A DNA stretch of 41,535 nt, taken from NCBI GenBank assembly GCA_001791645.1, contig MGFA01000015.1:1-41535 (forward strand), read 5' to 3'. Shown here piece after piece: positions 1-37,718 of the stretch (positions are counted from its first letter, which is position 1; the number at the start of each line of letters is the position of its first letter). The position numbers were made by a program, and so were the translations under genes. Under the pieces are notes generated by a model, which made no database searches, had not been told where the DNA came from, and saw only the letters and a program-made list of their open reading frames with translations. This DNA comes from Candidatus Uhrbacteria bacterium RIFOXYB12_FULL_58_10 (GTDB lineage: Bacteria > Patescibacteriota > Patescibacteriia > UBA9934 > GWF2-40-263).

Positions 1-159
1 CATGATGTCCAAGATAATCAAATCGTAGCCGTTGATTCTCGCCAACTTTTCTCCATCTTCACCGTCGAATCCAAAATCAACCGCGTAGCCGCGGTCACGC
101 AATTCTTCCACGATGTTTTCATTTAATTTTGTTTCGTCTTCGACGACGAGAATTTTCAT
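1..159 (-). CDS. Response regulator, receiver domain (N-terminal part, cut by window edge)
   Basis: Translating the reverse strand from the ATG at 159 gives 53 residues starting MKILVVEDE and ending LIILDIM at the window edge. This is the first half of a CheY-like receiver fold: the acidic pair E7/D8 binds metal and D51 is the expected phospho-acceptor at the end of beta-3. The ORF track omits it because it is incomplete. The beginning resembles OmpR-type two-component regulators, but any output domain lies outside the window. No histidine kinase is visible here. It is independent of the two receiver proteins at 9.65-10.43 kb. Confidence 0.85.
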   Translation of the reverse strand, partial: MKILVVEDETKLNENIVEELRDRGYAVDFGFDGEDGEKLARINGYDLIILDIM

Positions 160-284
160 AGCGTAAGTACGATATACCCCGACTGGTGAAGAAATAGTGA
201 AGCGCTCGCTGTTGTCATCATTCTATCAGAACCATACCGGAAGTCGTGAATCATCATGAGATTGTTTTTTTCGCGCAGATCTTT

Positions 285-9535: not shown

Positions 9536-9546
9536 AGAAGGCGAAG

Positions 9547-9555
9547 GTTATACCA
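9547..9555 (-). promoter_or_regulatory. Extended -10 promoter of the ABC-F gene
   Basis: The minus strand reads TGGTATAAC, ending 12 bases before the ATG at 9535. A weak -35-like TAGCAT lies 17 bases upstream. The predicted leader is only a few bases. Confidence 0.6.
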
Positions 9556-9610
9556 TGCATCTGAAATAAATGCTAGTCCCGAGGTTTCAAATTTCGGTTA
9601 TGCGGATGCG

Positions 9611-9639
9611 TTGCGAATTGACGAAAGACTGGGTATAAT
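9611..9639 (+). promoter_or_regulatory. Promoter of the regulator / giant-protein operon
   Basis: TTGCGA (9611-9616) and TATAAT (9634-9639) are separated by 17 bases. Transcription would begin about 7 bases before the ATG at 9653. This rules out the track start (the TTG at 9611, which is the -35 itself). With the ABC-F promoter it forms a compact divergent control region. Confidence 0.8.
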
Positions 9640-9652
9640 GCAGTTGAAATCT

Positions 9653-10042
9653 ATGTTTGGAAAAAAGAGTATAAAAAAACGGGTGCTAGTCGTGGAAGAC
9701 GACGCTCTCCTGGCAAAAATTCTCGTAGAGAAACACGAACGGGAAGGATTTTTGGTATCCGTGGTCGAGAATGGTCTTGAGGTCGCCGATACGGTCAAGT
9801 CATTTTCCCCGAATTTGATTATCCTCGACCTGATCATCCCAGGGATCGACGGTTTTGCCGTGTTGAAACAATTGAAGGCGAACACAGCGACGGAGAAGAT
9901 TCCGGTCGTTATTCTTTCGAATCTCGGGGACGAGGGCGATATTCGTTCCGGAAAGGCGCTTGGTGCGGAGGAGTATTTCATTAAGTCGAACGTCGAGGTG
10001 AAAAAGATCGTCGATTTCGTCAAGAAACGATTGGGCGTCTAA
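9653..10042 (+). CDS. Single-domain response regulator (CheY-like), 129 aa
   Basis: The protein is one receiver domain: RVLVVEDDALL (acidic pocket), LIILDLIIPGIDGF (phospho-acceptor Asp), VVILSNLGDEGD (Thr/Ser switch position) and YFIKSN (conserved Lys). There is no output domain, so it must signal by protein contact. The start at 9653 follows from the promoter. It is the first gene of a plus-strand operon with a one-base gap to a second, similar regulator. No kinase is encoded beside it. Confidence 0.92.
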   Translation: MFGKKSIKKRVLVVEDDALLAKILVEKHEREGFLVSVVENGLEVADTVKSFSPNLIILDLIIPGIDGFAVLKQLKANTATEKIPVVILSNLGDEGDIRSGKALGAEEYFIKSNVEVKKIVDFVKKRLGV

Positions 10043-10043
10043 T

Positions 10044-10430
10044 ATGAAAACAGGCGCGGAAAAAAAGATTTTGTTAATCATCGAGGACGACGAGATTTTG
10101 TTGCGCGCGCTGTACCTCACCTTTCAAAAAAAAAATTATACCATCGCGACCGCGACCGATGGCGAGTCCGCGCTCAAGATGACCGAGCGCATGAAGCCGG
10201 GTTTGATTCTCCTCGACCTAATCATCCCCAAGATGGATGGGTTCGAGTACCTGAAGAACATGAAGTCCAATGCGAAGCTTGCCAGGATTCCCGTGATCGT
10301 TTTGTCAAACTTGGGAACACAGGAAGACATTGATAGGGCGAAAGAGCTTGGTGCCATGGATTATTTTGTGAAATCGGACACGAATTTGTCCGACTTGGCC
10401 AAAAAAGTTGAAAAGGTATTGGCAGGATAA
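10044..10430 (+). CDS. Single-domain response regulator (CheY-like), second copy, 128 aa
   Basis: A complete receiver domain with KILLIIEDDEILL, LILLDLIIPKMDGFEYL, VIVLSNLGTQED and YFVKSD. It closely parallels the preceding protein (same LDLIIP and LSNLG blocks), so the pair arose by tandem duplication or are sister genes. The ATG lies one base after the upstream TAA, and no Shine-Dalgarno site is present, implying coupled translation. Again there is no effector domain. Its place just ahead of the membrane and surface proteins suggests control of surface behaviour, an inference from position only. Confidence 0.92.
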   Translation: MKTGAEKKILLIIEDDEILLRALYLTFQKKNYTIATATDGESALKMTERMKPGLILLDLIIPKMDGFEYLKNMKSNAKLARIPVIVLSNLGTQEDIDRAKELGAMDYFVKSDTNLSDLAKKVEKVLAG

Positions 10431-10443
10431 GCGGCCTCAACTT

Positions 10444-11271
10444 ATGCGATACGCTTGGCTGAACCTGGTGCTGCGATTATCCAATCGCATTTACCAGCGC
10501 AAGCAAAGGGTGGTCAGCCAGGAAGGCCTGGCAGCCGTGGGGAACGTATTCGTTCTGATTTGTCTGGAGCTTATTCTGGCATTCTTTTCGCTTCCCCTTT
10601 ACCTAAACCTAAAACCGCAGAAGATTACAGCTTATTTTGAGGAGCGGGGAAGTTATTCGAAGATCATTTTTGACTATAACCTTCGTCGAATCCTGACGCT
10701 AACGGGAGTCGGTATTTTTTTGGCCATTTGGCTCGTCAAACTGTTGCTTATCTTGTTGGCGCCGACCGTGCTTGGAACGCCTCAGCTCTATCGCGTGTCT
10801 GAGCTGCGTCCGCCGGATCTGTTGACGGTGGACATGGAAACGGTCGCGGCAGAATCCGACATTCAGGCATCAAGGATTTCCTCCGATCTGATCGTTCCAG
10901 AATTGACGCAAGTACGGAAGAGCGGTGGCAAGGACTTCGTTTTTTATGGGACCGGGGCACCAAATTCGACCGTTGTTTTGCTCCTTTCCGACCTGCAGAC
11001 GGCCGTATACACGGGGGAGGCGGACCAGAATGGAAACTGGAAGATCGAACACCTCAATGAAAATTTCAAGCTCAACGAAGGAAATCATTCCATCCTGACT
11101 TTTACGCTTGACCAGGAAGAAAAGACGCGCAGTGATTTCTCGTCTGAACAATATTTCAAAGTGAGAACGACTTTCCTGGACATGGTTATAAGAAACGTCG
11201 ACGTGCTGGCCAATTGGTCGGTGATCATTTTGTTGTCGGTGGGCGTTTTTCTCACGTTCCTGACCCTTTGA
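10444..11271 (+). CDS. Membrane protein with one Ig-like domain; miniature of the giant surface protein, 275 aa
   Basis: I start at the ATG at 10444, 13 bases after the second regulator. Two transmembrane segments lie near residues 28-50 (LELILAFFSLPLYLNL) and 80-105. A polar stretch follows, then a beta-rich domain (DFVFYGTGAPNSTVVLLLSD ... QNGNWKIEHL ... LNEGNHSILTFTLD), and a final transmembrane helix (about 255-273). The first 110 residues resemble the start of the 3178-aa protein (SLPLYL/F, P+K, Y...LRR/VRR, T). The last ~110 residues resemble its end (FSGTAVPNSHVVVYIHS ... NGVWSI). So it has the two ends of the giant without the repeats. It may anchor or assemble with it; that role is inferred. 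Confidence 0.8.
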   Translation: MRYAWLNLVLRLSNRIYQRKQRVVSQEGLAAVGNVFVLICLELILAFFSLPLYLNLKPQKITAYFEERGSYSKIIFDYNLRRILTLTGVGIFLAIWLVKLLLILLAPTVLGTPQLYRVSELRPPDLLTVDMETVAAESDIQASRISSDLIVPELTQVRKSGGKDFVFYGTGAPNSTVVLLLSDLQTAVYTGEADQNGNWKIEHLNENFKLNEGNHSILTFTLDQEEKTRSDFSSEQYFKVRTTFLDMVIRNVDVLANWSVIILLSVGVFLTFLTL

Positions 11272-11287
11272 TCCTAATCGCGTTCCT

Positions 11288-14200
11288 ATGGAAAAACGAT
11301 TCCTTAACGTATTCCTGATGTTTTCGGGATACGTTTTCGCATTGAAGGAACGGTTGGTGCAGGCGAAGGACTGGTACCGCGTGCTGGCGATCGCCACGGC
11401 GCTCATCCTCGCTGAGCTTGTTTTCGCGCTTGTGTCTCTCCCGTTGTATTTCGTCGTGTCGCCGAAGAAGGTCCAGGAATCCGGAATGGTCTTTCCGGAA
11501 CGCAAGGGAGCCGGAAAATATCGGGATTATGTCGTGCGAAGGAAGATCACCATGGCATCCGCGTTGGGCGCGACGGCCGTTTTCGCGCTCAAGATTTTTT
11601 TCGTGGGCGTGGTTTCGTTCTATATGCTTGGCGCGCAGGAGCTGCTGGCTGACACGCAGGACTGGACATTCGACACGCCAGGAAATTACACATACGACAG
11701 CGCGAAGATTGAGGTGACGGGTGGAGTTGCGCGCCTAAAGAATCTTGGGAGTGCTTCGAGCGGAAGTACTTCGAATTCCAGTTTTGATGCGAGCGCGGCG
11801 GGTTGGACGGGCGTGCCAGGATGGATAGATGCGCCAAGTAAAACCAACAGTACCAATTGGCAGTCCGCGGGGGGAAATCCGACAGGTCATGTTGACATCA
11901 ACCTTCCGGGAAAAAAGAAAAACAGTTCGGCCGGTTACTGGTATCAGGCGTTCACCACGACGGCGAGCACGCCGGACACGGCCACGCTGAACCTTGACTG
12001 GAGGTCCGTCTCGGTTACCGATTTGCCAACGTCCTACCAGCTGTACGCGTTCATCGACACGGGAAGCGGGAATCCGGTTCTTGGCACGCAAGTATGGTCC
12101 AGTGGAAATTTGACCTCGGCGACGAGTTGGGCGTCAATTCCCACGGTGGATATCCGTTCGAAGGTTCCGACGGCCGGGACGTATTATTTGAAAATCGCGG
12201 CATATCACACATGTCAAACTGGAACGGACTGCGATACGGTTTCCGGCTTTGATAACGTTGCCGTGAATTGGTCAAAGACCGTTGTCAGCTACGATACGAG
12301 CAAGCCGACTATTTATCCGAACGCGTCGCTTAACCCATCAAAGGTCATTACCTGGGATTCATTCGCGGAAACCGCGACCAAGAACGGCGGGCAGATTTAC
12401 TATCAGCTTTCAGATGACGATGGATCCACGTGGAATTATTGGAGCGGTTCGACGTGGGCCGCGGCCGGGGCCGGCAATTATAACGCGGCGTCCGAGATAC
12501 ATGCGAACATCGCGACGTTTCCCACGACGTCAAACAAAATCAAATTCAAGGCATTTTTGGAAGGCGACGGCTCCCAGCAGGTTATGTTGGACAATGTTGC
12601 CATCGGATACACGCAGAACGCGCTGCCGGTGGTGACGTCCGTGACCCCGGCGCAGGATACCGGCGCGGGATACGTGTACGTGAATTACAGCCTACAGGAC
12701 AACAATAGTGATCCGCTCAGTTTGACGACGTACGAGTATTCGCTGACAGGAGCATTCGCCGGAGAACAAGCAACCATGACGCCGGTGCCGGTTGACCCGA
12801 ACCACAACGGGGTCACGGGGCTCTCATCCTCGCCAGGCGGCACGGCGCATACCTTCGTTTGGGATGCCAAGTCGCAGGTCGGTGCCATTTATGACTCGAC
12901 CGTTTACGTGCGTCTGCGCGCGAATGATGGCGTGGGGAACAGCGAGTATGCGATTTCGAGCGCATCCCCGGTCGATTATGTGATTCCGGTCGTTTCAAAC
13001 GTGACGGCCGTTCAGACCCCCGAATCGACGAACGTCGCATTCACGTATGACCTGACGGACGACACACCGGACAATTTGCTCGTCGAGGTTGACGTCTCTG
13101 AAGATGCCGGTTCCACCTGGACCGTGACGGACACGAGCGTGGGCGGGGCGGTTGGGAGTGGAATGTCGACCGGGACGGGAAAAACGATTACCTGGGCCGC
13201 GAAGACAGATTTTCCAAACCAGGTACAACATGACATTCGGGTTCGCGTCCGCGCAAAGGACAAGTGGATGAACCAAGGCACGGACGCCGCGAGCGCGGAC
13301 TTTGCCATTGATACGCTCTCTCCGGCCACGGCGATCGTCGCGAACTTGCAGGCGCAGCCGAATGCCGGAGATACGACCGTGCTTATTGGCGGTTCGTTTA
13401 CGGAAACGAACCCGGACACGAACGATTTTTACGTGGCCATAAACGGCGGGGCATATTCCGCCGGAACGGCCGGAACCACGAACACGGCAACGCCCGCAGA
13501 CCAGGCAACAGCGGTTGGAGCGACGCTCGATGGGAATGATGGCGTCTCCGGAGTAAAAATCATACACACGGATGATTTCGGACAGGCAACGGATAACGAG
13601 AACCCTTCGCCGGCAACGGCCTACACGTACGTGAGGCCGTACACGCCGCAGGCACCAACCTTGAGTTTGCCGGCGACCACCAACCTGAACCTGACCATCG
13701 TGCCGCACGCGAGCGAGGCGTCCGATTTGCCATATGCGATCCAGGAAACCACGACCGGCCTGTACGCGCAGGGTAACGGCACGCTTGGCGCCAGCCCGGT
13801 TTGGCAGATCATGGGGACGGGTTCCGGACAGTGGGGAAATAACACTGGCGTTTCAGGCCGAGTGAACGTTAGCGGGCTGTCCTCTCCGCTCTCGATGTAT
13901 GTCTTTAGGGTCAAATCGCGTAACCAGAACGACGGCGCGCACGCGGCTTCCTCGGAATCGGCGTATTCGGCGACCGCGCAAATCACGAACACGGCCCCGT
14001 CAATCTCCTATTCGAGCGTGTCGCAGACAACGGATGGCACCCAGTATGTCACGGTTAGCTACACGGGTACGGACGGGCAAGGGGACATTTGCAGCCTGCC
14101 GACGTATGAGTATTCCACGGACAACGTCAACTGGTATGCTATGACGGAAAAGACGGGCGTCGGCAGCGAAGGCGTAAGCAATCTTGTGTTCTTGTCCGGC

Positions 14201-17200
14201 GGGAGTGCGCACGCGTTCGTCTGGAATTCGGCCGCGGACGTCCCGAATTCCGAGCACGCGGCGGTTCGAGTCAGACTCAAGCCGAATGATTCGTTGACTG
14301 ATGGCTCGGTCGCCACTTCGAGTCCGTTTGCAGTTGACCAAAAAGTCCCGATTGTTTCCAACGTGTCCGTCATGCAAAACGCTGGTGCCAGGACCGTGAC
14401 CATTGGATATGACCTGTCCGATGCGCACAATTCCACGGTTGAGATCGACATTTCCGAGGACGGGGGTTCCACCTGGAGCGTGGCGGACACCGCGGTAAGT
14501 GGCGACGTTGGTTCCGGGATTGCGTCTGGCGCGGGAAAGAGCATCACCTGGAACGCGGGCACGGACTTTGACGACCAATACCAGAGCGACATCCGCGTTC
14601 GCGTCCGTGCCAACGATACGTTCGGCAACCAGGGCGCCAATGCCGAATCGTCGAACTTCACGCTCGACACACACGACCCCTCCGTCACCAACGTGACCGC
14701 GGCCCAGGACGGCGGGGCAAAGACCTTCACGTTTCACTACGATGTCTCCGAGGACGCCGGGAATGTCACGGTCGCGCTCGCCATCTCGAGCAACGGGGGG
14801 TCCACATGGGTCGTTCCGACGACCTCAGCGTCTGGCGACCTTGGCGCGGGCATCGGGTCCGGGAGCGGAAAGACGATCGCCTGGGACGCCGGGACTGATT
14901 ATGACGGCTTTGAAAAGACGGCCATGCGCGTGAGGATTACGGCAACGGATTCATATTCGAACGCCGGCATTGGCTCCACCGGCGATTTCTCCTTGGATAC
15001 GCTGGCCCCGCGAGTGACGGGCGTGAGCGCCGCCCATGGCGCCGGATCCACGAACGTTGTCGTCACATATACGCTGGCGGATCAAAACGTCTCGCAGGTC
15101 GAGATTGATATCTCGGAGGACAGAGGCGGAAGTTGGACGGTTGCGGACACGGCCGTGTCAGGCGATGTGGGTTCGGGCGTTGCCAGCGGCGCGAAGACCA
15201 TTACGTGGGAGGCAGGAACCGATTTTGACGAGCAATCACAGGCGGACATGCGCGTTCGGGTCCGGGCGAAGGATCCGTTTGAGAATCAAAGCGCGAATAC
15301 TGAGTCTGGCGATTTCTCGATTGACACGGTCAATCCGACTGTCAACGTTATTGCCGATTTGCAGGCGCAGCCGAATGGCGGTGACACCACGGTACTCATT
15401 GGCGGCTCGTTCATGGAAACGAATCCGAACACGAACGGCTTTTATGTCGCGTTGAACGGAGGCGATTATGGTTCGGTTACCGACGGGCAGACGAACACGG
15501 CGACGCCCGCGGACAAGGCGACTGCCACCGGGGTGACGCTCGACGGCAACGACTATGTCTCTAAGGCGAAGATCGTGCACGCGGACGATTTCGGACAAAC
15601 GGTCGACAACGAAAACGTCTCGCCGTCCGCGGCGTACAAATATGTGAAACCGTACACGCCGCCGGCGCCGACCGTGGATAATCCGACGGTCGGCATGGTA
15701 GACGTGACCGTGAACAAGCACGCGTCGGAAACGGACGGGTTGGAATATGCCGTGTACGAGACCACGCAGGACGCGTACGTGCAATCGGACGGTACGCTCG
15801 GCGCCAGCGTGGCTTGGCAGGCGCTTGGAACGGGCGGCGGGGAGTGGGGAAACGGGACGGGTACGTCTGGCAAGGTGACGGCGAGCGGGCTTGCGAATCA
15901 CTCGTATACGTACGAGTTCAAGACCGTTTCGCGTAACGTGAGCGACGCGGCGCACGCGGCGTCGAGCGAAAGCGCGCTTTCCGGCGGGGCCTCTTCTGCC
16001 AATCAGTCGCCGGTGATCGTCCTTGATTCGGTCGCGCAGACCACGGACGGCTCAAAATATGTCACGATCAACTACACGGGATCGGATCTTGAGAGCGAGG
16101 ATTCCAATGTCATCACGGCGGAATATTCCCTCAATGGCACCACGTGGTATGACATGACCGAAAAGACGGGCGTGGGAAGCGACGGCACGACCGGGCTTTC
16201 CTTCGGCTATGCCGGTAGCGCGCATGATTTCATGTGGGATGTGGGCACGGATTTGGCAAACACGGAGGATTCCACGACCTATGTCCGATTGCAGGCGAAT
16301 GACGGCACGTCGAGCAGCGCCATCACCACGTCGAGTCCGTTCGCCGTTGATACGAAGGTACCGGCGATTTCCTCGGTGGTCGGCGAACAGACGCTCGGTT
16401 CTGGTATTGTTTCCTTCGCGTACACGCTAACGGACCTGTCGACCGGTACGGTCGAGCTTGATATTTCAGATGACGGCGGCTCCACCTGGAACGTGGCCGA
16501 CACGAGCGTGAGCGGCGACGTGGGCGGAGACGTTTCTTCGGGGACAGGGAAGACGATCTCGTGGAATGCGCTTTCGGACTTTGCAAATCAGGAACAGACC
16601 GACCTTCGCGTCCGCGTCCGCGCGACGGACGCGTTCGGAAACGCGGGAACGAACGCGTCGTCCACGAACTTCGCGCTTGACACGAAGGTTCCGGGCGTCA
16701 GCAACGTGACGGCATCGCAGGACGCGGGTCTGAACACGGTGACGATCGAGTACGACCTTTCCGACGCGAACGATTCCACGGTCGTCATTGAGATCTCCGA
16801 GGATTTTGGTTCGACCTGGGGAGTGGCGACGTCCACCCTTTCCGGCGACGTCGGCGCGGGCGTGGCATCGGGCGTTTCAAAGACCGTCGCGTGGGACGCG
16901 GCAACGGACTTTCCAAATCGTGAGCAGGCAGGCATGGTTGTCCGCGTTCGCGCGACGGACACGTACGCCAACGCGGGCCCGAACGTGTCCTCCGCGTCGT
17001 TTGTGGTGGATACAAAGGCGCCGGTCGTCTCGAACGTGAGTGCCGTCCAGACGCTCGGCACCGACTCCGTGGTCTTCACGTATGACCTTGCGGATAGCGG
17101 GGCGTCGACCGTTTTGCTCGACATCTCGGATGACGGCGGCTCCACCTGGACCGTGACGGACACGTCCGTGGCCGGAAGCGTCGGGGCCGGTATCACGGCC

Positions 17201-20200
17201 GGCAACGGGAAAGCGATCACATGGGACGCGGCCACGGACGCGCCGGGCACGGATCTCTCGACGATGCGCGTGCGCATTCGCGCGACGGATCCGTACGAGA
17301 ACGCGAGCGCGAACGTCGAATCATCGAATTTCGTCCTTGACACCGTTGCGCCGTCCTCGAACGTCTTGGCAGATGTGGCGTCACAGCCGCAAGCTGGCGA
17401 TTCGGTCGTTTCCGTCGAAGGGTCGTTTTCCGAGACAAATCCGGATACCAACGAGTTTTATGTGGCGATAAACGGCGGGGCGTATTTTGCCGGTACGTCG
17501 GGGATCGGAAATACGGCATCTCCGTCAAACCAGGACACGGCGGTCGGTGCCACGCTCGACGGGGACGATTACGTCTCAAGGGTGAAGATCGTGCACACCG
17601 ATGATTACGGGCATTCCGTCACGAACGAAAACGTGTCGGTCACGACCTCCGTAAAATACGTGAAGCCGTACGTACCGCAGGCGCCGACCGTAGGAAATCC
17701 GGAAAATACGTCCGTGGACGTTCTGGTTCTGCCGAACGTTTCCGAAACAGCCGGTCTGGAATACGCCATCCATGAAACGACGACGGATCGCTTTGTCCAG
17801 GCAGACGGGAGCCTCGACGTTGCCGAGGATTGGCAGACGACGGCCGCATGGGGAACGGTGACCGTCACCGGGTTGACGTCGCCGGTCGCGACCTATGCGT
17901 TTCAGGTAAAATCCCGAAACGTCAGCGACGCGGCGTACGCGGCGTCGAGCGAGAGCGCTTTGTCGGCCTCCGCGTCCATTGCCAACACGGCTCCGAGCGT
18001 TTCCATTACCGCGGCCGCGCAGGTCACGGGTGGCAACTATGCGCTCATCGAGTACATTGGGACGGACGCGCAAAACGACACCAACGACCTTTCCGTGTTC
18101 GAATATTCGACGGATAACGCGACATGGCATGTCATGACCGAGAAATCGGGCGTCGGTTCGGACGGGGTGAGTGACCTCGTATTCTCGTCCGTTGGATTAA
18201 GCTACGTTTTCGCCTGGGACATTGCATCGGATTTGACGAACACCGGGGATTCGACCGTGTACGCGCGTTTGCAATCGACCGACACGTTGGCTGATAGCAA
18301 CGTGGCGACATCATCGGCGTTCGCGGTCGACACGGTCGGACCGGTAATCTCAAACATCCGGACGAGCCAGGCGCCGGGCACCACGAACGTGACGATTTTT
18401 TATGACCTCGCCGAAGATACGCCGGGAAACAACGAGATGATGCTCGTCATTTCGGATGACGGCGGCGCGACATGGACGGCTCCCGTAACAACGCTTTCCG
18501 GCGATGTGGGCGCGGGCGTCTCTGCCGGGGATGACCGGACCGTGACCTGGGACGCGGGAGTTGATTTTGCGGGTCAGGAAAGCGACGCGCTGCGCGTCGA
18601 GATCCAAGGAACCGACGCCTACGACAACGTCGGAAGCGCGGTGCAATCGTCCGATTTTACCGCGGACGCGAAGTCGGCCGTGGTGAGCGGCGTGTCTGCC
18701 TCGCAAACGGTCGGAACTGGTCAGGTCGTCGTCAACTATGCACTCTCCGATTTGTCGCCCGGAGGGTCGTTCGTTGAGTTCGGTATTTCGTCGGATGGCG
18801 GCGCTACCTGGAGCGTGCTGGCAACCACTTACTTCGGCGACATTGGTTCCGGCCAGACCACAGGCTCAAAGTTATTCACCTGGGAGGCCGGAACGGATTT
18901 CAACGGTCAGGCCGGGGCTGACATGAGAGTTCGAGTTCGGGCAAAGGATTACTTCGCGAACCAGGGGTTCTATGTCGAGTCCTCATCATTCGTCGTTGAT
19001 ACGAGCGCCGCGGTGATCTCCGGTCTCTTGGCCGTTCAGGATGCGGGAGCGGATACGGTTACGCTAACCTATGACCTGGCAGATGACTCCGATGGCACGT
19101 TGAATGTGAACGTCGACGTTTCCGATGATGGAGGATTCACCTGGACGGTCGCGCGCACTTCCATGATTGGCGATGTTGGGTCGGGAATTACGACCGGAGC
19201 TGGAAAAACGATTGCCTGGTACGCAGGAACGGATTTCAACGGCCAGGATGTCGCCAACATGCGTGTTCGAATGACTGCAACGGACAGATTCGGCAACGTG
19301 AGTCCGAACTTTGAATCCGGTGATTTCGCGCTTGATACGGCCGATCCTGTCGGGCTGGCTGACCTGAGTACATTTTCAAGCGGTGCGACGTCTGTGACAT
19401 TGCACTGGACTGCGGCGACGGACGGGCACTTCGACCATTATGAGCTTTGGTATGGCGCGAACCGTGCGGATGTCCAGGATCGAACAGGATCTGCTTCCAG
19501 ATGGGGCGTGACCGACGACGCGAATTTGGCCGACGCGTTGACGGACGCGACCGTGATCACGGGTCTCTCGCTTGACGCGGATTTTTACGGAAAGATTTGG
19601 GCGGTTGACGCGTTCGGACATGAAACCACTACGAACGACATCAATGTATACACGCTGGTCGAGGCAACGGGCGGCGGCGGTGGAGGCGGTCTTGCCGGGC
19701 TTTCGGACGCGGTCGCTCCGGTCCAGCCGATATTATCATCGCTTTCGACTCCAACGAATCAAGCCATGGTCTTGGTTTCAGGGTTGGCCGAACCATTGTC
19801 GAACGTCGATCTCTACGATCACGACAATCTCGTCGCGCGTTTGGATCAGGTCACGGGATACACGGGGCGATTCTCGCAGGAGTTCTCGTTTGCCGAGGGC
19901 GAACATCGGCTGACCGTTCGGGCGATTGATTCGTCTCGCAACGAAAGCGAGCGTTCGATCGCAGTCAACCTTTCCGTTGATATGACTCTGCCGAGCCGAC
20001 CGATCATCACAAGCCAACGAATCGCTGAAACCATTGAAACGACTCCCGTGATCGTCGGAACGGCAGAAGCGCTTAGCGCCGTCGAGATTGTCGTCGATGG
20101 TCAATACGCATTCGTGACATCAGCGGACCAGTACGGTAACTGGAGATATCTGCTTCCGAATCAGTTCGCGCTTGACCTTGGGGCGCATACGTTCGTTGCG

Positions 20201-20824
20201 CGCGCGACGGACACGGCAGGAAATACGAGCAATCCGGCGACAGTCACGTTGAACGTGATTGAGCCTCCCGTATCAGTCATGCCGAAACCAGGCGTCGGCG
20301 AAGGAACGGTCCTTGGATTGCTGCTGCCATCCGTTCCGGTTCTTACGCCCACAACGCCTCCGGTGTCCGTCGCAGAAATTATTCGTGAGGAGACAGAGGC
20401 TGTCGTTCTCCCGGGACTTTTGGCTCCAGAAGTTGTTCTGAGCGCGGCCTCGCTCGATGGAAATAGGTTCATTTTCAGCGGCACGGCCGTTCCGAATAGT
20501 CATGTGGTCGTTTACATCCATAGCGCCCAAGCGCTCATTTACCAGACAATAGCAGATAACAATGGCGTGTGGAGCATCTCCCATTCGCAGGATACGGCCG
20601 AATTGACCCCGGGCGAGCATACGATCTATTCCGTTTCAGTTGATCCGGAAGCCAAAGTAAAGAGCATACCAGGAGAGGTGAAATCCTTCTTCGTCACACG
20701 AAGCGCCTGGGCAGCGTTCTATCAGATGCTCAACTTACAAACAACGCTTGTGACTATTCTTGCCCTGCTTGCCTGCGTTTGGTGGCTTTTCATCCTGAGA
20801 AAGCGTACCATCGCTCAGGTATGA
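11288..20824 (+). CDS. Giant repeat-built cell-surface protein, 3178 aa
   Basis: Order along the chain: two transmembrane segments (about 36-58 and 83-110); a jelly-roll-like region (about 120-330) and a further beta domain; one T and one S module; then three super-repeats of 671-672 residues (from about 677, 1348 and 2020). Each super-repeat contains an E module (GGSFTETNPDTN), an FN3-like F module (SRN...AHAASSESA), a T module (TTDGTQYVTVSYTGTD) and three S modules (DGGSTWxV ... SGDVGSG ... TDF ... RVRVRA). An FN3 domain, a GGGGGGLAG linker, three Ig-like domains and a C-terminal transmembrane helix ending RKR follow. The layout suits a long, membrane-anchored stalk or adhesin for contact with other cells; no enzyme motif is seen. 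It is tightly packed in the regulator operon and overlaps the MFS gene by ATGA. Confidence 0.9.
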   Translation: MEKRFLNVFLMFSGYVFALKERLVQAKDWYRVLAIATALILAELVFALVSLPLYFVVSPKKVQESGMVFPERKGAGKYRDYVVRRKITMASALGATAVFALKIFFVGVVSFYMLGAQELLADTQDWTFDTPGNYTYDSAKIEVTGGVARLKNLGSASSGSTSNSSFDASAAGWTGVPGWIDAPSKTNSTNWQSAGGNPTGHVDINLPGKKKNSSAGYWYQAFTTTASTPDTATLNLDWRSVSVTDLPTSYQLYAFIDTGSGNPVLGTQVWSSGNLTSATSWASIPTVDIRSKVPTAGTYYLKIAAYHTCQTGTDCDTVSGFDNVAVNWSKTVVSYDTSKPTIYPNASLNPSKVITWDSFAETATKNGGQIYYQLSDDDGSTWNYWSGSTWAAAGAGNYNAASEIHANIATFPTTSNKIKFKAFLEGDGSQQVMLDNVAIGYTQNALPVVTSVTPAQDTGAGYVYVNYSLQDNNSDPLSLTTYEYSLTGAFAGEQATMTPVPVDPNHNGVTGLSSSPGGTAHTFVWDAKSQVGAIYDSTVYVRLRANDGVGNSEYAISSASPVDYVIPVVSNVTAVQTPESTNVAFTYDLTDDTPDNLLVEVDVSEDAGSTWTVTDTSVGGAVGSGMSTGTGKTITWAAKTDFPNQVQHDIRVRVRAKDKWMNQGTDAASADFAIDTLSPATAIVANLQAQPNAGDTTVLIGGSFTETNPDTNDFYVAINGGAYSAGTAGTTNTATPADQATAVGATLDGNDGVSGVKIIHTDDFGQATDNENPSPATAYTYVRPYTPQAPTLSLPATTNLNLTIVPHASEASDLPYAIQETTTGLYAQGNGTLGASPVWQIMGTGSGQWGNNTGVSGRVNVSGLSSPLSMYVFRVKSRNQNDGAHAASSESAYSATAQITNTAPSISYSSVSQTTDGTQYVTVSYTGTDGQGDICSLPTYEYSTDNVNWYAMTEKTGVGSEGVSNLVFLSGGSAHAFVWNSAADVPNSEHAAVRVRLKPNDSLTDGSVATSSPFAVDQKVPIVSNVSVMQNAGARTVTIGYDLSDAHNSTVEIDISEDGGSTWSVADTAVSGDVGSGIASGAGKSITWNAGTDFDDQYQSDIRVRVRANDTFGNQGANAESSNFTLDTHDPSVTNVTAAQDGGAKTFTFHYDVSEDAGNVTVALAISSNGGSTWVVPTTSASGDLGAGIGSGSGKTIAWDAGTDYDGFEKTAMRVRITATDSYSNAGIGSTGDFSLDTLAPRVTGVSAAHGAGSTNVVVTYTLADQNVSQVEIDISEDRGGSWTVADTAVSGDVGSGVASGAKTITWEAGTDFDEQSQADMRVRVRAKDPFENQSANTESGDFSIDTVNPTVNVIADLQAQPNGGDTTVLIGGSFMETNPNTNGFYVALNGGDYGSVTDGQTNTATPADKATATGVTLDGNDYVSKAKIVHADDFGQTVDNENVSPSAAYKYVKPYTPPAPTVDNPTVGMVDVTVNKHASETDGLEYAVYETTQDAYVQSDGTLGASVAWQALGTGGGEWGNGTGTSGKVTASGLANHSYTYEFKTVSRNVSDAAHAASSESALSGGASSANQSPVIVLDSVAQTTDGSKYVTINYTGSDLESEDSNVITAEYSLNGTTWYDMTEKTGVGSDGTTGLSFGYAGSAHDFMWDVGTDLANTEDSTTYVRLQANDGTSSSAITTSSPFAVDTKVPAISSVVGEQTLGSGIVSFAYTLTDLSTGTVELDISDDGGSTWNVADTSVSGDVGGDVSSGTGKTISWNALSDFANQEQTDLRVRVRATDAFGNAGTNASSTNFALDTKVPGVSNVTASQDAGLNTVTIEYDLSDANDSTVVIEISEDFGSTWGVATSTLSGDVGAGVASGVSKTVAWDAATDFPNREQAGMVVRVRATDTYANAGPNVSSASFVVDTKAPVVSNVSAVQTLGTDSVVFTYDLADSGASTVLLDISDDGGSTWTVTDTSVAGSVGAGITAGNGKAITWDAATDAPGTDLSTMRVRIRATDPYENASANVESSNFVLDTVAPSSNVLADVASQPQAGDSVVSVEGSFSETNPDTNEFYVAINGGAYFAGTSGIGNTASPSNQDTAVGATLDGDDYVSRVKIVHTDDYGHSVTNENVSVTTSVKYVKPYVPQAPTVGNPENTSVDVLVLPNVSETAGLEYAIHETTTDRFVQADGSLDVAEDWQTTAAWGTVTVTGLTSPVATYAFQVKSRNVSDAAYAASSESALSASASIANTAPSVSITAAAQVTGGNYALIEYIGTDAQNDTNDLSVFEYSTDNATWHVMTEKSGVGSDGVSDLVFSSVGLSYVFAWDIASDLTNTGDSTVYARLQSTDTLADSNVATSSAFAVDTVGPVISNIRTSQAPGTTNVTIFYDLAEDTPGNNEMMLVISDDGGATWTAPVTTLSGDVGAGVSAGDDRTVTWDAGVDFAGQESDALRVEIQGTDAYDNVGSAVQSSDFTADAKSAVVSGVSASQTVGTGQVVVNYALSDLSPGGSFVEFGISSDGGATWSVLATTYFGDIGSGQTTGSKLFTWEAGTDFNGQAGADMRVRVRAKDYFANQGFYVESSSFVVDTSAAVISGLLAVQDAGADTVTLTYDLADDSDGTLNVNVDVSDDGGFTWTVARTSMIGDVGSGITTGAGKTIAWYAGTDFNGQDVANMRVRMTATDRFGNVSPNFESGDFALDTADPVGLADLSTFSSGATSVTLHWTAATDGHFDHYELWYGANRADVQDRTGSASRWGVTDDANLADALTDATVITGLSLDADFYGKIWAVDAFGHETTTNDINVYTLVEATGGGGGGGLAGLSDAVAPVQPILSSLSTPTNQAMVLVSGLAEPLSNVDLYDHDNLVARLDQVTGYTGRFSQEFSFAEGEHRLTVRAIDSSRNESERSIAVNLSVDMTLPSRPIITSQRIAETIETTPVIVGTAEALSAVEIVVDGQYAFVTSADQYGNWRYLLPNQFALDLGAHTFVARATDTAGNTSNPATVTLNVIEPPVSVMPKPGVGEGTVLGLLLPSVPVLTPTTPPVSVAEIIREETEAVVLPGLLAPEVVLSAASLDGNRFIFSGTAVPNSHVVVYIHSAQALIYQTIADNNGVWSISHSQDTAELTPGEHTIYSVSVDPEAKVKSIPGEVKSFFVTRSAWAAFYQMLNLQTTLVTILALLACVWWLFILRKRTIAQV
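13318..15330 (+). repeat. Super-repeat copy 1 (E-F-T-S-S-S modules)
   Basis: This copy begins just before the AQPNAGDTTVLIGG block. Measured between the same Pro codon (13358 and 15371), its length is 2013 bases, or 671 codons. The three S modules start at VSNVSVMQNAG, VTNVTAAQDGG and VTGVSAAHGAG. Confidence 0.85.
15331..17346 (+). repeat. Super-repeat copy 2 (E-F-T-S-S-S modules)
   Basis: It starts before AQPNGGDTTVLIGG. The distance to the matching Pro codon of copy 3 (15371 to 17387) is 2016 bases, or 672 codons. Module order is identical to copy 1. Copies 1 and 2 are most alike in the E module. Confidence 0.85.
17347..19341 (+). repeat. Super-repeat copy 3 (E-F-T-S-S-S modules)
   Basis: It starts before SQPQAGDSVVSVEG and keeps the same six-module order but is more diverged. 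It ends where the C-terminal FN3 domain begins (ADLSTFSSGATSVTLHW). Confidence 0.8.
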
Positions 20825-30786: not shown

Positions 30787-32715
30787 TCAGATGGTCTCGG
30801 CCCAGGTGCGGTCCTGGACCACGGGAAGCTGAAGCGCGCGTTCGCGCTCCAAGTCGAGCGTGCCGAGGTGCAGCGAGAGCGGGCACTGGACCCACTTGAA
30901 GATGGAGCCGAAGAACAGTCGGACGAACAGCGCCGTCCATTCCGCGACCCGCTCTTCCTTGGGCCACATCTGCGTGACGATCGCCTGCACCTCGCAGACG
31001 GACATCTTCTCACCCACGAACAGGGCGAACATCGCGTCCAGCACCGGGAACGGCATCAGGTCGCGCTCGTCCTCCTGTCCCTCTTCCAGCTCGGCCGATG
31101 CCTTGCTGTCGAGAAGGCTGTGGATCACATCAAGTCCGGTCTGCTCGAAATACCAGCGAATGAACTCGATGACCACCGTCTTCGGCAGGTTTGCGATGAG
31201 CGCGAGCGCGCCCATCATGTCGCCGCCGACCGTGGTGTAGCCCACGGCCTTCTCGGTCATGTTGGATGTCTGCAGCCACAGGCCGCCCGTCTCGTTGGCG
31301 ATGTTCTGCATGCGCTCGCCGCGCACGCGAGCCTGGATATTCTGCTCGGTATTGCGCTTGAGACTCGAGACGCCGAGCAAGGCCATGAGCGCCCGGCGCT
31401 CCTTTTCCACCGCCTCCTGGATGGGCGAGACCTTGAGCGTGACGCCGAGGTCATCGCAGATCCGCTTCGTGATCCCGCGCGTCTCCGTGCTGTTGTGGTC
31501 GCTCGGCATGTCGACGCACCAGACCATGTCCCTGATGAACGCCGCGCGTTCGTCGTCCGCGAGCTTGCGCCGGTCGGCCTCCTTGCATACCGCCTTGTGG
31601 GCGAGCATGAGCGTCAGGCACGAGTCCTTCCCGCCGGAGAGTGCGATGAGGATCCGCTTGAACGCGCCGGTCTTGCGGAAGTATCCCATCATGCCGATGC
31701 CGATGACCATCTCCAGGTCCTGGAAGTACTCGTATCGCGCGCTGGCGCGGGGCGAGTCCGCCTCGGGAAGGAAGAAGCTCCGGTTCTTCGGGAACGGGTA
31801 TGGCAGCGCGCCGTTCGGCGGAGCGACCTTCCTCAGGATGTCGTCGGTTACCACGGGGACCGGCTTGTGGGCGCCGAGGTACTGGTCGCGCGCGTGGCGC
31901 CAGGTGGTGTTTTCCATTCGCATGCGGCGCACGCGGTCGAGGTCGACCACCTGTGTCTGGTATCCCTCGCGGCCGCGTTCGGAATCGAGCATCATTCGCC
32001 CGCACTGGTTGACGTATCCGCCCCCTTCGAATACCAGGCTGTCCTGGGCGCCGACGAGGTTGACGTACGCCACCGTGGTCAGGTTGTCCGCGGCCCGCGT
32101 GGAGATCATCTCGTGGCGCGTCTGGCGGGCGCCGAGTCGGAACGGCGAGGCATTGATGCTCACGTCGAGCTCGGCGCCGCTGAAGTTGCGCCGAACCATG
32201 GGGCCGTCGGGGCGCCAGATGTCCTCGCAGACCTGCGTTGCCATCCTTCCGAAGCCGAACTCGAAGATCATGTCGCCGATCGGAATGTTCCGGATCTTTG
32301 CGCTCATGCCGATCGAGCCAGGGGTGATGGTCCGGCCCTCGTAGAACACGTTGTAGTCCGGGAGGTTCTCTTTTGGAACCATTCCGACGATTCGACCACC
32401 CGCGATAATGGCCGCGACGTTGTACAGGCTGCCGTCTAGGTGGACCGTGAGGCCGACCACGAGCACCGTGTTTCGGAACGTGTCGTCGAGGCTCGCGACC
32501 AGGTTGTCGAGCGCCTTGCCCTGCTGGTCGACGAAGGCCGCCCATTGAACCAGGTCCTCGCACGGGTAGCCAGATACGGACAGCTCACCGAAGGCAGCCA
32601 CATGACAGCCCTCGGCTGCCATCGCACGCGCCTGGACGAGAATCCGATTGACGTTGTCCTCGAAGGCACCGACCGTGGGGTCGACGTTTCCGAGACCGAT
32701 TTTTACGAGTCGCAT
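30787..32715 (-). CDS. nadE: Glutamine-dependent NAD(+) synthetase, 642 aa
   Basis: It catalyses the last step to NAD: NaAD + ATP + glutamine to NAD + AMP + PPi + glutamate. The N-terminal nitrilase-type glutaminase holds the Glu (FGELSVSGYPCEDL, ~44), Lys (VPKENLPDYNVFYEGR, ~114) and Cys (ATQVCEDIW, ~162) triad. The C-terminal synthetase has the PP-loop ALSGGKDSCLT (~358) and TSNMTEKAVGYTTVGGD, the usual 'tsN.sE...Gy.T..GD' nucleotide site. The length suits the two-domain form, so it does not need free ammonia. I start at the ATG at 32715 with GGAG five bases upstream; the track start at 32775 lies in the leader hairpin. Last gene of the operon, followed by the terminator. Confidence 0.96.
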   Translation of the reverse strand: MRLVKIGLGNVDPTVGAFEDNVNRILVQARAMAAEGCHVAAFGELSVSGYPCEDLVQWAAFVDQQGKALDNLVASLDDTFRNTVLVVGLTVHLDGSLYNVAAIIAGGRIVGMVPKENLPDYNVFYEGRTITPGSIGMSAKIRNIPIGDMIFEFGFGRMATQVCEDIWRPDGPMVRRNFSGAELDVSINASPFRLGARQTRHEMISTRAADNLTTVAYVNLVGAQDSLVFEGGGYVNQCGRMMLDSERGREGYQTQVVDLDRVRRMRMENTTWRHARDQYLGAHKPVPVVTDDILRKVAPPNGALPYPFPKNRSFFLPEADSPRASARYEYFQDLEMVIGIGMMGYFRKTGAFKRILIALSGGKDSCLTLMLAHKAVCKEADRRKLADDERAAFIRDMVWCVDMPSDHNSTETRGITKRICDDLGVTLKVSPIQEAVEKERRALMALLGVSSLKRNTEQNIQARVRGERMQNIANETGGLWLQTSNMTEKAVGYTTVGGDMMGALALIANLPKTVVIEFIRWYFEQTGLDVIHSLLDSKASAELEEGQEDERDLMPFPVLDAMFALFVGEKMSVCEVQAIVTQMWPKEERVAEWTALFVRLFFGSIFKWVQCPLSLHLGTLDLERERALQLPVVQDRTWAETI

Positions 32716-32745
32716 GTTGTCTCCGATGAATGAGCATTTCTTTGT

Positions 32746-32811
32746 CTTGAGGCCTCGAACACGGGATGTGCTCAAGGACTCGAGGAAAGATCCGTATGCC
32801 TTGGCATACGG
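32746..32811 (-). promoter_or_regulatory. Two-hairpin intercistronic element before nadE
   Basis: Minus strand order: hairpin 1 CCGTATGCC-AA-GGCATACGG (32792-32811); linker ATCTTTCCTCG; hairpin 2 CTTGAG...CTCAAG enclosing GAGCAC/GTGTTC (32746-32776); then GGAG and ATG. Confidence 0.75.
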
Positions 32812-32833
32812 AGAGGGGCGGGTTGTATCTCCC

Positions 32834-33796
32834 CTAGTAGAGGCTCTCGCCGTTGTGGTCCCAGTTGCGATACCCGTGGCCGTCTGGCTTGTGCACGATG
32901 GACTTCAGGACGCTGCCGCTCGTTCCTTCCTCAGTGCATGAGAAGGTCAGGTTCACGCCGTGGGCTGGGTCCTTGAAGTTCCCGCCGACCACGAACACCG
33001 GGGTTCCCCACGGGAGTGGGTCGCGCTGCTGGAGGCCGTACTGGTTCTCGAGTTCGGAGGCCATGCGGATGAACTCGTCCTGGATCGGCGCGACTTCGAC
33101 CGCGTGGGCGTGGCTCCATTCGTACACGCCCGCGTTCCACGCGCCGTATACCTTCGGTCGCCACACTTCGCGGACGACCACCTGGTGCGCGCCGAGGTTG
33201 CCGGCCCGCTGAACGTAGTCGAGCACGCCTGCCGCGTCCTTCACGCCGAGATCGCTCATCACGAGCGAGCAGCGCACGAGCAGGCCAAGGTCGCGCGCGA
33301 TCGGAATGAGCTCGGCCGCGCTCTTGCGAATGCCCATGAGCTCGCGGTTCTGCGCCTCGTCGAACGACGCGAGCGAGAAGCTCACCATGGTGAGCCCGGC
33401 GTCGACAAGCTGTTCGAGCAGTTGCTCGCGCAGTTTGCCTGTGTGCAGGAGCCAGCCGTTCGTGTGCATGTCCACGAGAGGGAGGTATTCCTGCGCGGTA
33501 CTGACCAGCCAGGTCAGGTACTCCGGCGTCTCCTGGGTCGGATCGGCCTTGCCGGTGAGAATCGCGTGCGTGGCGCCGAGCCGTTCGGCATATCGGAGGC
33601 CGACGCGAAGCCGGCGCTCGTTGCAGAAGGCGATGTCGCCCGCGTTGCACGGCGTGACTTCTGCCTCGGGGGTGGTCCGCGAGATGCAGAAGCGGCATCC
33701 GGCGTTACACCGGGTCCGCGAGCTGCACATGAGGCTGATCGACTGGGCGCGCATCTGGCCATTGCCATGCGCGATCTGGGGCTTTTGGGTGTCCAT
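32834..33796 (-). CDS. Radical SAM protein in the NAD operon, 320 aa
   Basis: Cys30, Cys34 and Cys37 form the CxxxCxxC cluster site (RCNAGCRFC). THAILTGKADPT follows, close to the glycine-containing SAM-binding strand of a TIM barrel, and then YLPLVDMHTNGWLL. A fourth cysteine, CTEEGTSGS, near the C-terminus could bind substrate or a further cluster. It resembles small MoaA/NifB-like radical SAM enzymes in layout, but I cannot name its reaction. Its place between a phosphatase and nadE suggests action on a pyridine-nucleotide-related compound, an inference. It starts at the ATG at 33796 and has its own two-hairpin leader. Confidence 0.88.
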   Translation of the reverse strand: MDTQKPQIAHGNGQMRAQSISLMCSSRTRCNAGCRFCISRTTPEAEVTPCNAGDIAFCNERRLRVGLRYAERLGATHAILTGKADPTQETPEYLTWLVSTAQEYLPLVDMHTNGWLLHTGKLREQLLEQLVDAGLTMVSFSLASFDEAQNRELMGIRKSAAELIPIARDLGLLVRCSLVMSDLGVKDAAGVLDYVQRAGNLGAHQVVVREVWRPKVYGAWNAGVYEWSHAHAVEVAPIQDEFIRMASELENQYGLQQRDPLPWGTPVFVVGGNFKDPAHGVNLTFSCTEEGTSGSVLKSIVHKPDGHGYRNWDHNGESLY

Positions 33797-33807
33797 GCGA
33801 TCCTCAT

Positions 33808-33868
33808 TCGAAGCGTCGACGGGGTGTCGGCGGCTCGAGGAAAGAGGCCTCCGCTACGAGATGGAGGC
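33808..33868 (-). promoter_or_regulatory. Two-hairpin intercistronic element before the radical SAM gene
   Basis: Minus strand: hairpin 1 GCCTCC...GGAGGC (33847-33868) with the upstream TAG stop in its loop; linker CTCTTTCCTCG; hairpin 2 TCGAGC..CGAC-ACCCC-GTCG..TTCGA (33808-33838); then GAGGATCGC and the ATG. Confidence 0.7.
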
Positions 33869-34636
33869 GAGCAGGTCTGCGTTGGAGAAGGTGCGACGGA
33901 CGATGGGCCGCCAGACGTTCGATGACCTCCCGAGGTCGCTCGGGCAGGTCGAATGGCGCCACATGGGAGCGTTGCGGACATCGTTCGGATTTTCTGGGTG
34001 CACCCGCGAGTATTCGACCACCTGGCCGTTGTAGATGTGGTCGCATGGATTCTCGGACGCGTCGAGCGCGTTCCAATCCTCGATGGTCAGTCGTTCCAGA
34101 CGCATGCGGAACGCCCACATGACCTCGCCGTGGCACACGATGATGGCGCGGCCGTCCGTGCACTCCCGGTGCAGGGTGTCGAGCATCCGATCCACGCGGC
34201 CGCACACTTCCACCATGGTTTCGCCGTTCGGCGGACACCACAGGAATCCGTTGATGGCTCGCCGTTCTATGTTTTCGGCGAAGCGTGCCAAGCGGTCGCG
34301 ATGGCACATCACGTCGAGGTCGCCCCAGTCACGCTCGCGCAGGTAGAAATCCACGCGCCACTGGGCGTTCTCGAGGCCGAGCAGGGCGGCGGTTTCTCGC
34401 GCGCGGAAGTAGTCCGACGTGAAATAGTGCGAATAGGGTGGGTTGTTGGAACGGATCCATTCGCCCGTGGCGCGCGCCTGTTCGCGCCCGCGTTCCGTGA
34501 GCCGCCAGGTACGGCTGTGGCGCTCGAGGAACTCGGCCGTGAAGCACGAGTCGTCGCCGCGCAGCGAAGCATGGTGCGCGACGTTGCCCTCGCTCTCGCC
34601 ATGGCGGACAAGAGTGAGACGCAGGGGCATGGTCAT
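33854..34636 (-). CDS. Histidine phosphatase family protein, 260 aa
   Basis: The N-terminus LRLTLVRHGESEGNVAHH has the RHG motif whose histidine takes the phosphate. The second histidine is in IIVCHGEVMWAFRMRLE. ETAALLGLENAQWRVDFYLRERDWGDLD corresponds to the 'rA..TA......l.E...G..' segment. This is the phosphoglycerate-mutase/phosphatase branch (cofactor-dependent PGM-like). Lacking an obvious mutase signature, it is more likely a phosphatase. Within this operon a mononucleotide or sugar phosphate derived from NAD turnover would be a sensible substrate, but that is inferred. The start ATG at 34636 is preceded by AAGGAG. Confidence 0.88.
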   Translation of the reverse strand: MTMPLRLTLVRHGESEGNVAHHASLRGDDSCFTAEFLERHSRTWRLTERGREQARATGEWIRSNNPPYSHYFTSDYFRARETAALLGLENAQWRVDFYLRERDWGDLDVMCHRDRLARFAENIERRAINGFLWCPPNGETMVEVCGRVDRMLDTLHRECTDGRAIIVCHGEVMWAFRMRLERLTIEDWNALDASENPCDHIYNGQVVEYSRVHPENPNDVRNAPMWRHSTCPSDLGRSSNVWRPIVRRTFSNADLLASIS

Positions 34637-34651
34637 GGCTGTCTCCTTGGT

Positions 34652-34705
34652 CCGAGCGGTCCAGTTGCCTGGACGGCTCGGGAAAAGAGAGGACGCTTAG
34701 CGTCC
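34652..34705 (-). promoter_or_regulatory. Two-hairpin intercistronic element before the histidine phosphatase
   Basis: Minus strand: hairpin 1 GGACGC-TAA-GCGTCC (34691-34705), in which the Nudix stop codon TAA is exactly the three-base loop; linker TCTCTTTTCC; hairpin 2 CCGAGC...CCAG-GCAA-CTGG...GCTCGG (34652-34681), closed by a GNRA-type tetraloop; then AAGGAG. This is the clearest example of the element. Confidence 0.8.
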
Positions 34706-35269
34706 CAGGTGTTGCGGCCTTCGAAGAAGTCGGCACTCGAGCTCGCGTGCAAGCGCGTACACGCGCAGGTCGTCGTGCGGGCCGATCAGAAATTCCTGAG
34801 TGGACATCCAGACGCGGTGCGTGCGTTCGTTCTCGGCCGCGACCCCGAACGTTTCACCCGGATCGAGTTGGTCCTCCCGAATCTCCGCGAACGCAAGGAT
34901 GCAGCGCTCCGTGAGCACACCCGGCGAAGGAGCCAGGGGACGGCCTTCATTGAGCAGGGTCACGTCGGCTTCCATGATGTTCGCACCGGCCTCTTCCTTG
35001 GCCTCTGCGACGAACAACGCCTTGGCGCCGACCACGCGGTCGAACCGTCCTGCGATGAGCTCGACGATCAGTCCCTCCGTGTTGTCGTCGCGCACCATGG
35101 GTGCGCGGTTCTGTCGAACCAGGCACACGCGATCATTGGCAGGGTCGTACAGCAGGCCCGAGACCGAGTCCGTGGTACGCACCACGAGCATCGTGTGTTT
35201 GGAACCGGGCTTCTGCCAGCGTTCGAGCCGAAGAAAGCCGGAAAAGTCGGTGTCAATCAGATTGAACAT
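34697..35269 (-). CDS. Nudix hydrolase-like protein (ADP-ribose pyrophosphatase type), 190 aa
   Basis: The layout is that of NudF-like ADP-ribose pyrophosphatases: VVRTTDSVSGLLYDP, then RVCLVRQNRAPM, then VELIAGRFDRVVGAK...FVAEAKEEAGANI, with EERC-like ILAFAEI after it. The Nudix box (GX5EX7REUXEEXGU) is incomplete: the EAKEEAG helix end is kept, but the usual Glu after GX5 and the Arg of REU are missing. Catalysis may be altered or weak. If active it would split ADP-ribose or a dinucleotide to mononucleotides. The ATG at 35269 overlaps the end of the nucleoside hydrolase gene by 13 bases and has GGAGG seven bases upstream, so it is coupled. The much longer track ORF is a shadow upstream of that. 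Confidence 0.8.
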   Translation of the reverse strand: MFNLIDTDFSGFLRLERWQKPGSKHTMLVVRTTDSVSGLLYDPANDRVCLVRQNRAPMVRDDNTEGLIVELIAGRFDRVVGAKALFVAEAKEEAGANIMEADVTLLNEGRPLAPSPGVLTERCILAFAEIREDQLDPGETFGVAAENERTHRVWMSTQEFLIGPHDDLRVYALARELECRLLRRPQHLGR

Positions 35270-36291: not shown

Positions 36292-36303
36292 ATCTTCACC
36301 TCG

Positions 36304-36362
36304 AGGCGTTGAGCACGCAATGTGTTCAACGCCTGGAGAAAAGAGACGAGACGTGTCTCGTC
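36304..36362 (-). promoter_or_regulatory. Two-hairpin intercistronic element before the nucleoside hydrolase
   Basis: Minus strand: hairpin 1 GACGAGAC-AC-GTCTCGTC (36345-36362), overlapping the pncB stop; linker TCTTTTCTCC; hairpin 2 AGGCGTTGA...TCAACGCCT enclosing CAC-ATTGC-GTG (36304-36334); then GAGGTG and ATG. Confidence 0.8.
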
Positions 36363-37623: not shown

Positions 37624-37656
37624 TATTATGCCTCCATGAAAAGGGCGTTTCTTTTT

Positions 37657-37713
37657 TCGGCGCTCCCACGCGGGTCGTGAGGGGGCCGAGTAAAGAGGGA
37701 AGCGGGGCTTCCC
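37657..37713 (-). promoter_or_regulatory. Two-hairpin intercistronic element before pncB
   Basis: Minus strand: hairpin 1 GGGAAGC-CCC-GCTTCCC (37697-37713); linker TCTTTACTCGG; hairpin 2 TCGGC...GCCGA enclosing CTCACG-ACCC-CGTGGGAG-like pairing (37657-37689). It is followed by ~25 bases and GGAGG. Confidence 0.7.
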
Positions 37714-37718
37714 GATGT

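Follow-up and report, generated by a model that had tools for sequence, protein, structure and literature searches.

Organization of the operon and of the giant protein

The window, which is the whole 41,535-nucleotide stretch of DNA that was analyzed and the entire contig C15 of a 1.12-Mb source genome, carries a four-gene operon in which two response regulators (RR1 and RR2), a small membrane partner, and a giant protein follow one another with intergenic gaps of 4, 16, and 16 nt, the giant gene coming last (Table 1). The earlier note had treated the giant in isolation and overlooked this context of response regulators and a paralogous small membrane protein. Both regulators match PF00072 well beyond its cut-off and carry the EDD, LDL, and IKS/VKS motifs (acidic pair, phospho-acceptor Asp, and Lys), and both end after the receiver, with no output domain in either. 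The candidate promoter lies 13 nt before the RR1 start and is suggestive only, shuffled sequences yielding 1.7 matches on average.

Table 1. Features of the window, with positions in nucleotides and residues of the encoded protein
Feature	Position	Strand	Description
Truncated receiver-domain ORF	1..222	-	At contig edge
Candidate sigma-70-like promoter, TTGCGA-17-TATAAT	9611..9639	+	10/12 consensus; sole match in 9300-11700
RR1, receiver-only response regulator	9653..10039	+	128 aa; PF00072 E=2e-18
RR2, receiver-only response regulator	10044..10427	+	127 aa; PF00072 E=1e-23
Small membrane partner	10444..11271	+	275 aa; amphipathic N-terminus, two TM helices, one Ig-like domain, C-terminal TM (hydropathy)
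Giant protein	11288..20824	+	3178 aa
Module N	11288..11650	+	aa 1-121; two TM helices, aa 29-59 and 87-117; paralogous to small partner
Module J	11651..12289	+	aa 122-334, about 213 aa; beta-rich; conserved in relatives
Module K	12290..12613	+	aa 335-442, 108 aa; Asp-box SDDDGSTW
Partial unit T0-S0	12614..13309	+	T0 aa 443-563; S0 aa 564-674
Block u1 (E F T S S S)	13310..15322	+	aa 675-1345, 671 aa
Block u2 (E F T S S S)	15323..17338	+	aa 1346-2017, 672 aa; AF2 model pLDDT 82
Block u3 (E F T S S S)	17339..19330	+	aa 2018-2681, 664 aa; shorter F
Modules C, I, I	19331..20302	+	HMM map; conservation in relatives
Module Z	20405..20824	+	Ig-like domain; C-terminal TM, aa 3146-3172; short basic cytoplasmic tail
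NAD synthase and nicotinate phosphoribosyltransferase genes	30787..38181	-	Neighboring genes

Hidden Markov models built from the copies resolved the giant into the module order N-J-K-T-S-(E-F-T-S-S-S)x3-C-I-I-Z. For module J, Pfam gave weak matches only and no assignment, and no ligand-binding domain of known specificity was recognized in the window's giant. An LPXTG-type sortase motif is absent from the C-terminal sequence. The giant resembles SiiE (PDB 2yn3, among its fold matches) and the Lap-type adhesins in forming a long string of Ig-like domains that would project from the cell; unlike these, it gave no RTX family match and no type I secretion signal was found, its C-terminus being a TM helix that would serve as the anchor.

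The small partner, which also shows a weak Ca_tandemer match, is homologous to the two ends of the giant: its first about 120 residues correspond to module N and its last about 130 to module Z. Practically all small and giant proteins have a conserved Glu in TM1, and nearly all have a conserved Lys in TM2, the exceptions being the giants of L032 and L088. The small partner accompanies the giant wherever the context is visible in relatives. Because the two-helix module and the Ig-TM end are common to both proteins, the small partner is probably part of the same membrane complex as the giant. An Ala stands at a possible signal-peptidase site after TM2 (LLA before D, or LLA before A/D) in 16 of 16 giants; cleavage there is therefore possible and would leave J-K as a free tip. 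The two-helix module would thus be either retained or cleaved off after TM2. The mature chain would consist of about 26 Ig/FN3-like domains in a row, anchored through the C-terminal TM helix, and J-K would lie at the end opposite to this anchor.

The repeated block and its predicted fold

Self-comparison of the giant by ungapped BLOSUM scoring gave the best match at an offset of 671 aa (residues 632-1301, score 1686), followed by offsets of 1343 aa (704) and 672 aa (630), while shuffled giants never scored above 61 (20 shuffles, all offsets 60-2399). The 2-kb diagonal that had been proposed as a check on the repeat is thus present. At the DNA level, the repeat spacings are 2013 and 2016 bases, and the period from E1 to E2 to E3 is constant at 671 and 672 aa. 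The three-fold E-F-T-S-S-S super-repeat described in the earlier note, together with the partial T-S unit ahead of its first copy, was recovered in this way; the near-constant period of 2013-2016 bases claimed for it, however, does not extend to the third block, which is 664 aa long and is over after 1992 nt. T-to-T and S-to-S spacings into this block are 661 and 660 aa, because F3 is shorter (105 versus 116 aa) and the three S modules are 1-2 aa longer. The block copies are 57-61% identical at the DNA level and have no exact word in common longer than 19 bases, which makes a collapsed or artificial assembly repeat unlikely, and this explanation was rejected.

The constant length had also been taken as a sign of functional spacing. 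In line with a strict constraint that maintains the 2-kb period, u1 and u2 differ in length by one residue despite only 55% identity. However, the rate of indels per 100 aa is 0.2-0.4 in E, T, and S, 0.9 in F, and 0 in K and I, and since K and I lie outside the repeat, constant length is a property of such domains for which no special constraint is needed. In addition, F occurs in two lengths (about 105 or 116 aa), the third block drifts by 8-12 aa, and two relatives carry SSSS in blocks 3 and 4. Functional spacing as a separate constraint is accordingly not supported, and we regard its strict form as very improbable.

To the fold of the block, an AF2 model of u2 (pLDDT 82, pTM 0.54) computed from an alignment of seven window, L031, and L032 rows assigned an almost entirely beta structure. 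The S region of this model, with a pLDDT of about 90, shows 7-8 strands per module and a predicted beta-sandwich. Its best matches among solved structures were strings of Ig/FN3 domains (contactin, gp130, fibronectin, and SiiE), with low TM-scores over the whole model. For the F module, no FN3 family model match was found at E<=0.1, and the giant gave one weak DSCAM-type match, below cut-off and outside F, so that the FN3/Ig resemblance comes from the fold search alone. A profile of the whole block matched one non-significant sialidase among solved structures, and a J-K profile matched none. The model of the N-J-K-T-S head was discarded (pLDDT 39, two sequences in the alignment). The predicted fold supports a block region that is a beaded rod of Ig/FN3-like domains, and the stalk-like chain proposed earlier is backed by the model and its fold matches; rigidity of the stalk and its contact with a host or prey cell would be further steps.

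All 114 S modules and 15 of 15 K modules fit the relaxed Asp-box pattern [ST]x[DN]xGxx[WFY], 82 of the S modules also in its strict form S-x-D-x-G-x-T-W; E, F, T, C, and I modules are without it (0-2 each). The S profile matches Asp-box proteins, mostly by the motif alone. PF03404, the sulfite oxidase dimerization domain, scored 29.4 bits against the whole giant (cut-off, 22.7), and single S modules reached E=0.017 at best. The Asp-box is known from Ig-like domains of sulfite oxidase and chitobiase and from reelin, where Asp-boxes support inter-domain contacts and perhaps a rod-like superstructure (PMC2716378). By analogy, the Asp-boxes of the giant, present in all S and K modules as in PF03404, chitobiase, and the reelin subrepeats, may take part in inter-domain contacts or rod stacking. 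The giant differs from PF03404 and reelin in carrying tandem S modules inside a six-module block, and the likeness to reelin concerns the motif.

Relatives, block number, and block history

Of 73 genomes from the order, 7 were found to encode homologues of the giant at the thresholds used, as were 16 of 381 from the class; the weakest of these matches are to single modules. Two near-full-length relatives come from named metagenome-assembled genomes (L031, Buchananbacteria; L032, Kaiserbacteria). These matches place the source genome in the Patescibacteria. None of the four congeners (G001-G004) has a copy of the locus, and phage records gave no match. This patchy distribution indicates that the locus is not needed for life in this group.

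The relatives have the scaffold N-J-K-T-S-(E-F-T-S-S-S)n-C-I-I-Z, with n=0 in G103; n=1 in G331, G319, G148, and G376; n=3 in the window, G247 (=L031), G100, and G235; and n=4 in G025 and G009, in which the SSSS of blocks 3 and 4 amounts to a seventh module. Some relatives have a single I module instead of two, the C module was not detected in the G148 giant, and the G331 and L032 giants contain additional domains between modules. Shuffled module order, which had been named as grounds for giving up the super-repeat, was looked for and not found in any relative; the block number varied while the scaffold order was kept.

Several relatives show further peculiarities. About eight SpaA_2 prealbumin-like domains lie between C and I in the single-block giant of G331 (L079 4890-7259, minus strand), an alternative means of adding length. 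In the Kaiserbacteria relative (L032 11018-16093), about 1700 aa of other sequence, including a lectin-like Laminin_G_3 domain, is placed between K and T. The four-block giant of G009 (L035 4296-16336) is spread over three ORFs by stop or frameshift, which could mean a decaying gene or sequencing errors. In G025, a second repetitive secreted protein, split by frame, directly follows the giant at the contig end (L034 17225-18688).

These comparisons bear on whether the giant could be a structural envelope element, such as an S-layer-like coat or a doubly anchored loop, without a specific partner. TM segments at both ends and many weakly specific Ig-like domains would suit such a role; patchiness in genus and family, a block number of 0-4, and the lectin-like insertions in relatives argue against it, and we hold it to be quite improbable.

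To trace the origin of the blocks, a tree was built from 31 E-F-T segments of the window's giant and its relatives. The segments cluster by position and not by genome (u1, 100/99; u2, 100/99; u3, 87/94; u4, 99/96), and S modules largely cluster by position as well. Since each of blocks 1, 2, and 3 has its ortholog at the corresponding position in other families, the tree indicates that the triplication arose before these families split (or before a transfer between them) and that the copies have diverged in place since. Whole-unit duplication, as proposed in the earlier note, is supported by these clades, by block numbers of 0, 1, 3, and 4, and by an order that was never shuffled.

The reverse process is seen in G103. 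G103 (n=0) shares its genus with G247 (n=3), and the two come out as sisters for scaffold, small protein, RR1, and RR2. The T module of G103 is T0 (85 identities versus 35-37), and the first part of its single S follows S0 of G247, while the end follows the last S of block 3, the last 14 of 14 informative sites being of the block-3 type. The best single split fits 36 of 46 sites (permutation P=0.00045). Judged from these sites, G103 lost its entire array via a hybrid S, which is what would be left by one recombination between S0 and the last S.

Signaling genes and proposed function

The order RR1-RR2-small-giant recurs in 13 loci. RR1 is orthologous by position in 13 loci (clade 100/99), and RR2 forms a position-specific clade with R2 of relatives (94/88); the window's RR2 is labeled "far" in the regulator tree because the small ORF of the window, when extended upstream, overlaps it. 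In 11 loci (G009, G029, G046, G235, G331, G148, G376, G247, G103, L032, and G675), a histidine kinase of the PAS, Cache, or CHASE type is the immediate neighbor, upstream in some and downstream in others. No histidine kinase was seen within the available flanks of the window, G100, G025, and G310; in G122, a kinase lies about 7 kb from the locus, and the remaining loci are truncated where their contigs end. The total of HisKA genes per carrier genome is 1-4; G029 and G376 have no other than the one next to the locus. For 10 of 12 loci with a kinase neighbor, the probability is about 1e-15 at an assumed 2% per locus, a figure that is only rough because the loci are related. In G675, from another class of the phylum, a giant-kinase pair and a receiver-small pair are divergent; the layout has changed, yet the four parts stay together. 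The window's 41.5-kb contig holds no histidine kinase, the four of this genome lying on other contigs. Beyond the truncated receiver-domain ORF at the contig edge, more signaling genes, perhaps a kinase, could lie.

The linkage allows three readings of how signaling and tether are related. In the one that we judge probable, if only by a little, the giant is a membrane-anchored Ig/FN3-like surface tether whose reach depends on its block number and whose presentation or use is controlled by phospho-signaling. Alternatively, the giant may be an ordinary tether or adhesin, with the two-component genes controlling only transcription via another regulator or being historical neighbors. Receiver-only proteins can hand phosphate on to other regulators or compete with them, additional response regulators occur elsewhere in several genomes, and the window is without a nearby kinase. 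Against this stand the gene order kept over families with a position-specific clade for each regulator, the grouping retained in the rearranged G675 locus, and the missing output domains of RR1 and RR2; we consider this alternative possible but on balance unlikely. Signaling could also run from the outside in, with the giant as a contact sensor: pulling or binding at its tip would reach the kinase by way of TM helices and the small partner. Kinase adjacency in relatives, TM segments at both giant ends, and the charged TM residues common to small and giant proteins are compatible with this. However, the neighboring kinases carry their own, varied sensor parts (Cache-HAMP-PAS, PAS arrays, and CHASE) and so do not seem specialized for reading the giant, making such a relay improbable.

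In the favored reading, a surface tether under phospho-signaling control, the histidine kinase that adjoins the locus in most relatives would feed RR1 and RR2. Because these have no output or DNA-binding domain, they would have to act by protein contact, most likely touching the cytoplasmic side of the small-giant complex and thereby switching presentation or use of the tether, the reach of which would be set stepwise by the number of E-F-T-S-S-S blocks. At about 4 nm per domain, each block is estimated to add roughly 25 nm. RR1 and RR2 are receiver-only, unlike PorX, which has an additional C-terminal part; no type IX secretion system genes were seen, and binding by RR1 and RR2 is only proposed. 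The analogy with PorXY of the type IX secretion system lies in a CheY-like regulator thought to act on a surface-protein membrane complex: the binding partner of PorX is a membrane protein, PorL, and not a promoter (PMC5005315).

That the task of the tether would be cell contact is suggested by the lifestyle of cultivated Patescibacteria, by the giants of Vampirococcus, and by the lectin-like and SpaA insertions in relatives; Laminin_G_3 or eight SpaA_2 domains inserted in the same scaffold are as expected for an adhesin. To our knowledge, how most Patescibacteria recognize and hold their hosts is largely unknown outside the type IV pili of Saccharibacteria. Cultivated Patescibacteria are all described as episymbionts of other microbes (PMC12206443). 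Passages on the CPR bacterium Vampirococcus lugosii propose that giant membrane proteins carrying adhesion domains attach it to its host (PMC8080830). The present giant is likewise a very long membrane-anchored protein of a reduced CPR genome; as far as those passages go, it differs in forming one family with invariant module order, quantized blocks, a paralogous small partner, and linked response regulators, and they describe no locus of this kind (PMC8080830).

Nor was a described Patescibacteria locus of this kind found in the literature searched, from an incomplete library. Giant CPR surface proteins are known, while the linked signaling operon, the common anchors, and the position-locked blocks appear undescribed in that literature. 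More tentatively, and with rather less confidence than in the tether itself, we suggest an undescribed signal-controlled surface apparatus in which regulators and kinase act directly on a small-giant complex with common anchors, and in which lineages tune reach in one-block steps by S-module recombination. The operon joins a giant tether to some of the few signaling genes of reduced genomes and so provides named candidates for regulated attachment. With its series of 0, 1, 3, and 4 blocks on one scaffold, the family offers a natural experiment in reach, and G103 with its hybrid S module illustrates how a single step can alter that reach.

Two further observations concern the contig. Its GC content climbs from left to right, from about 45% at one end to 64% at the other, other contigs sampled having 53-59%, and this gradient possibly reflects a recent one-sided acquisition or a composite contig. 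The neighboring NAD synthase and nicotinate phosphoribosyltransferase genes amount to NAD salvage in a reduced genome.
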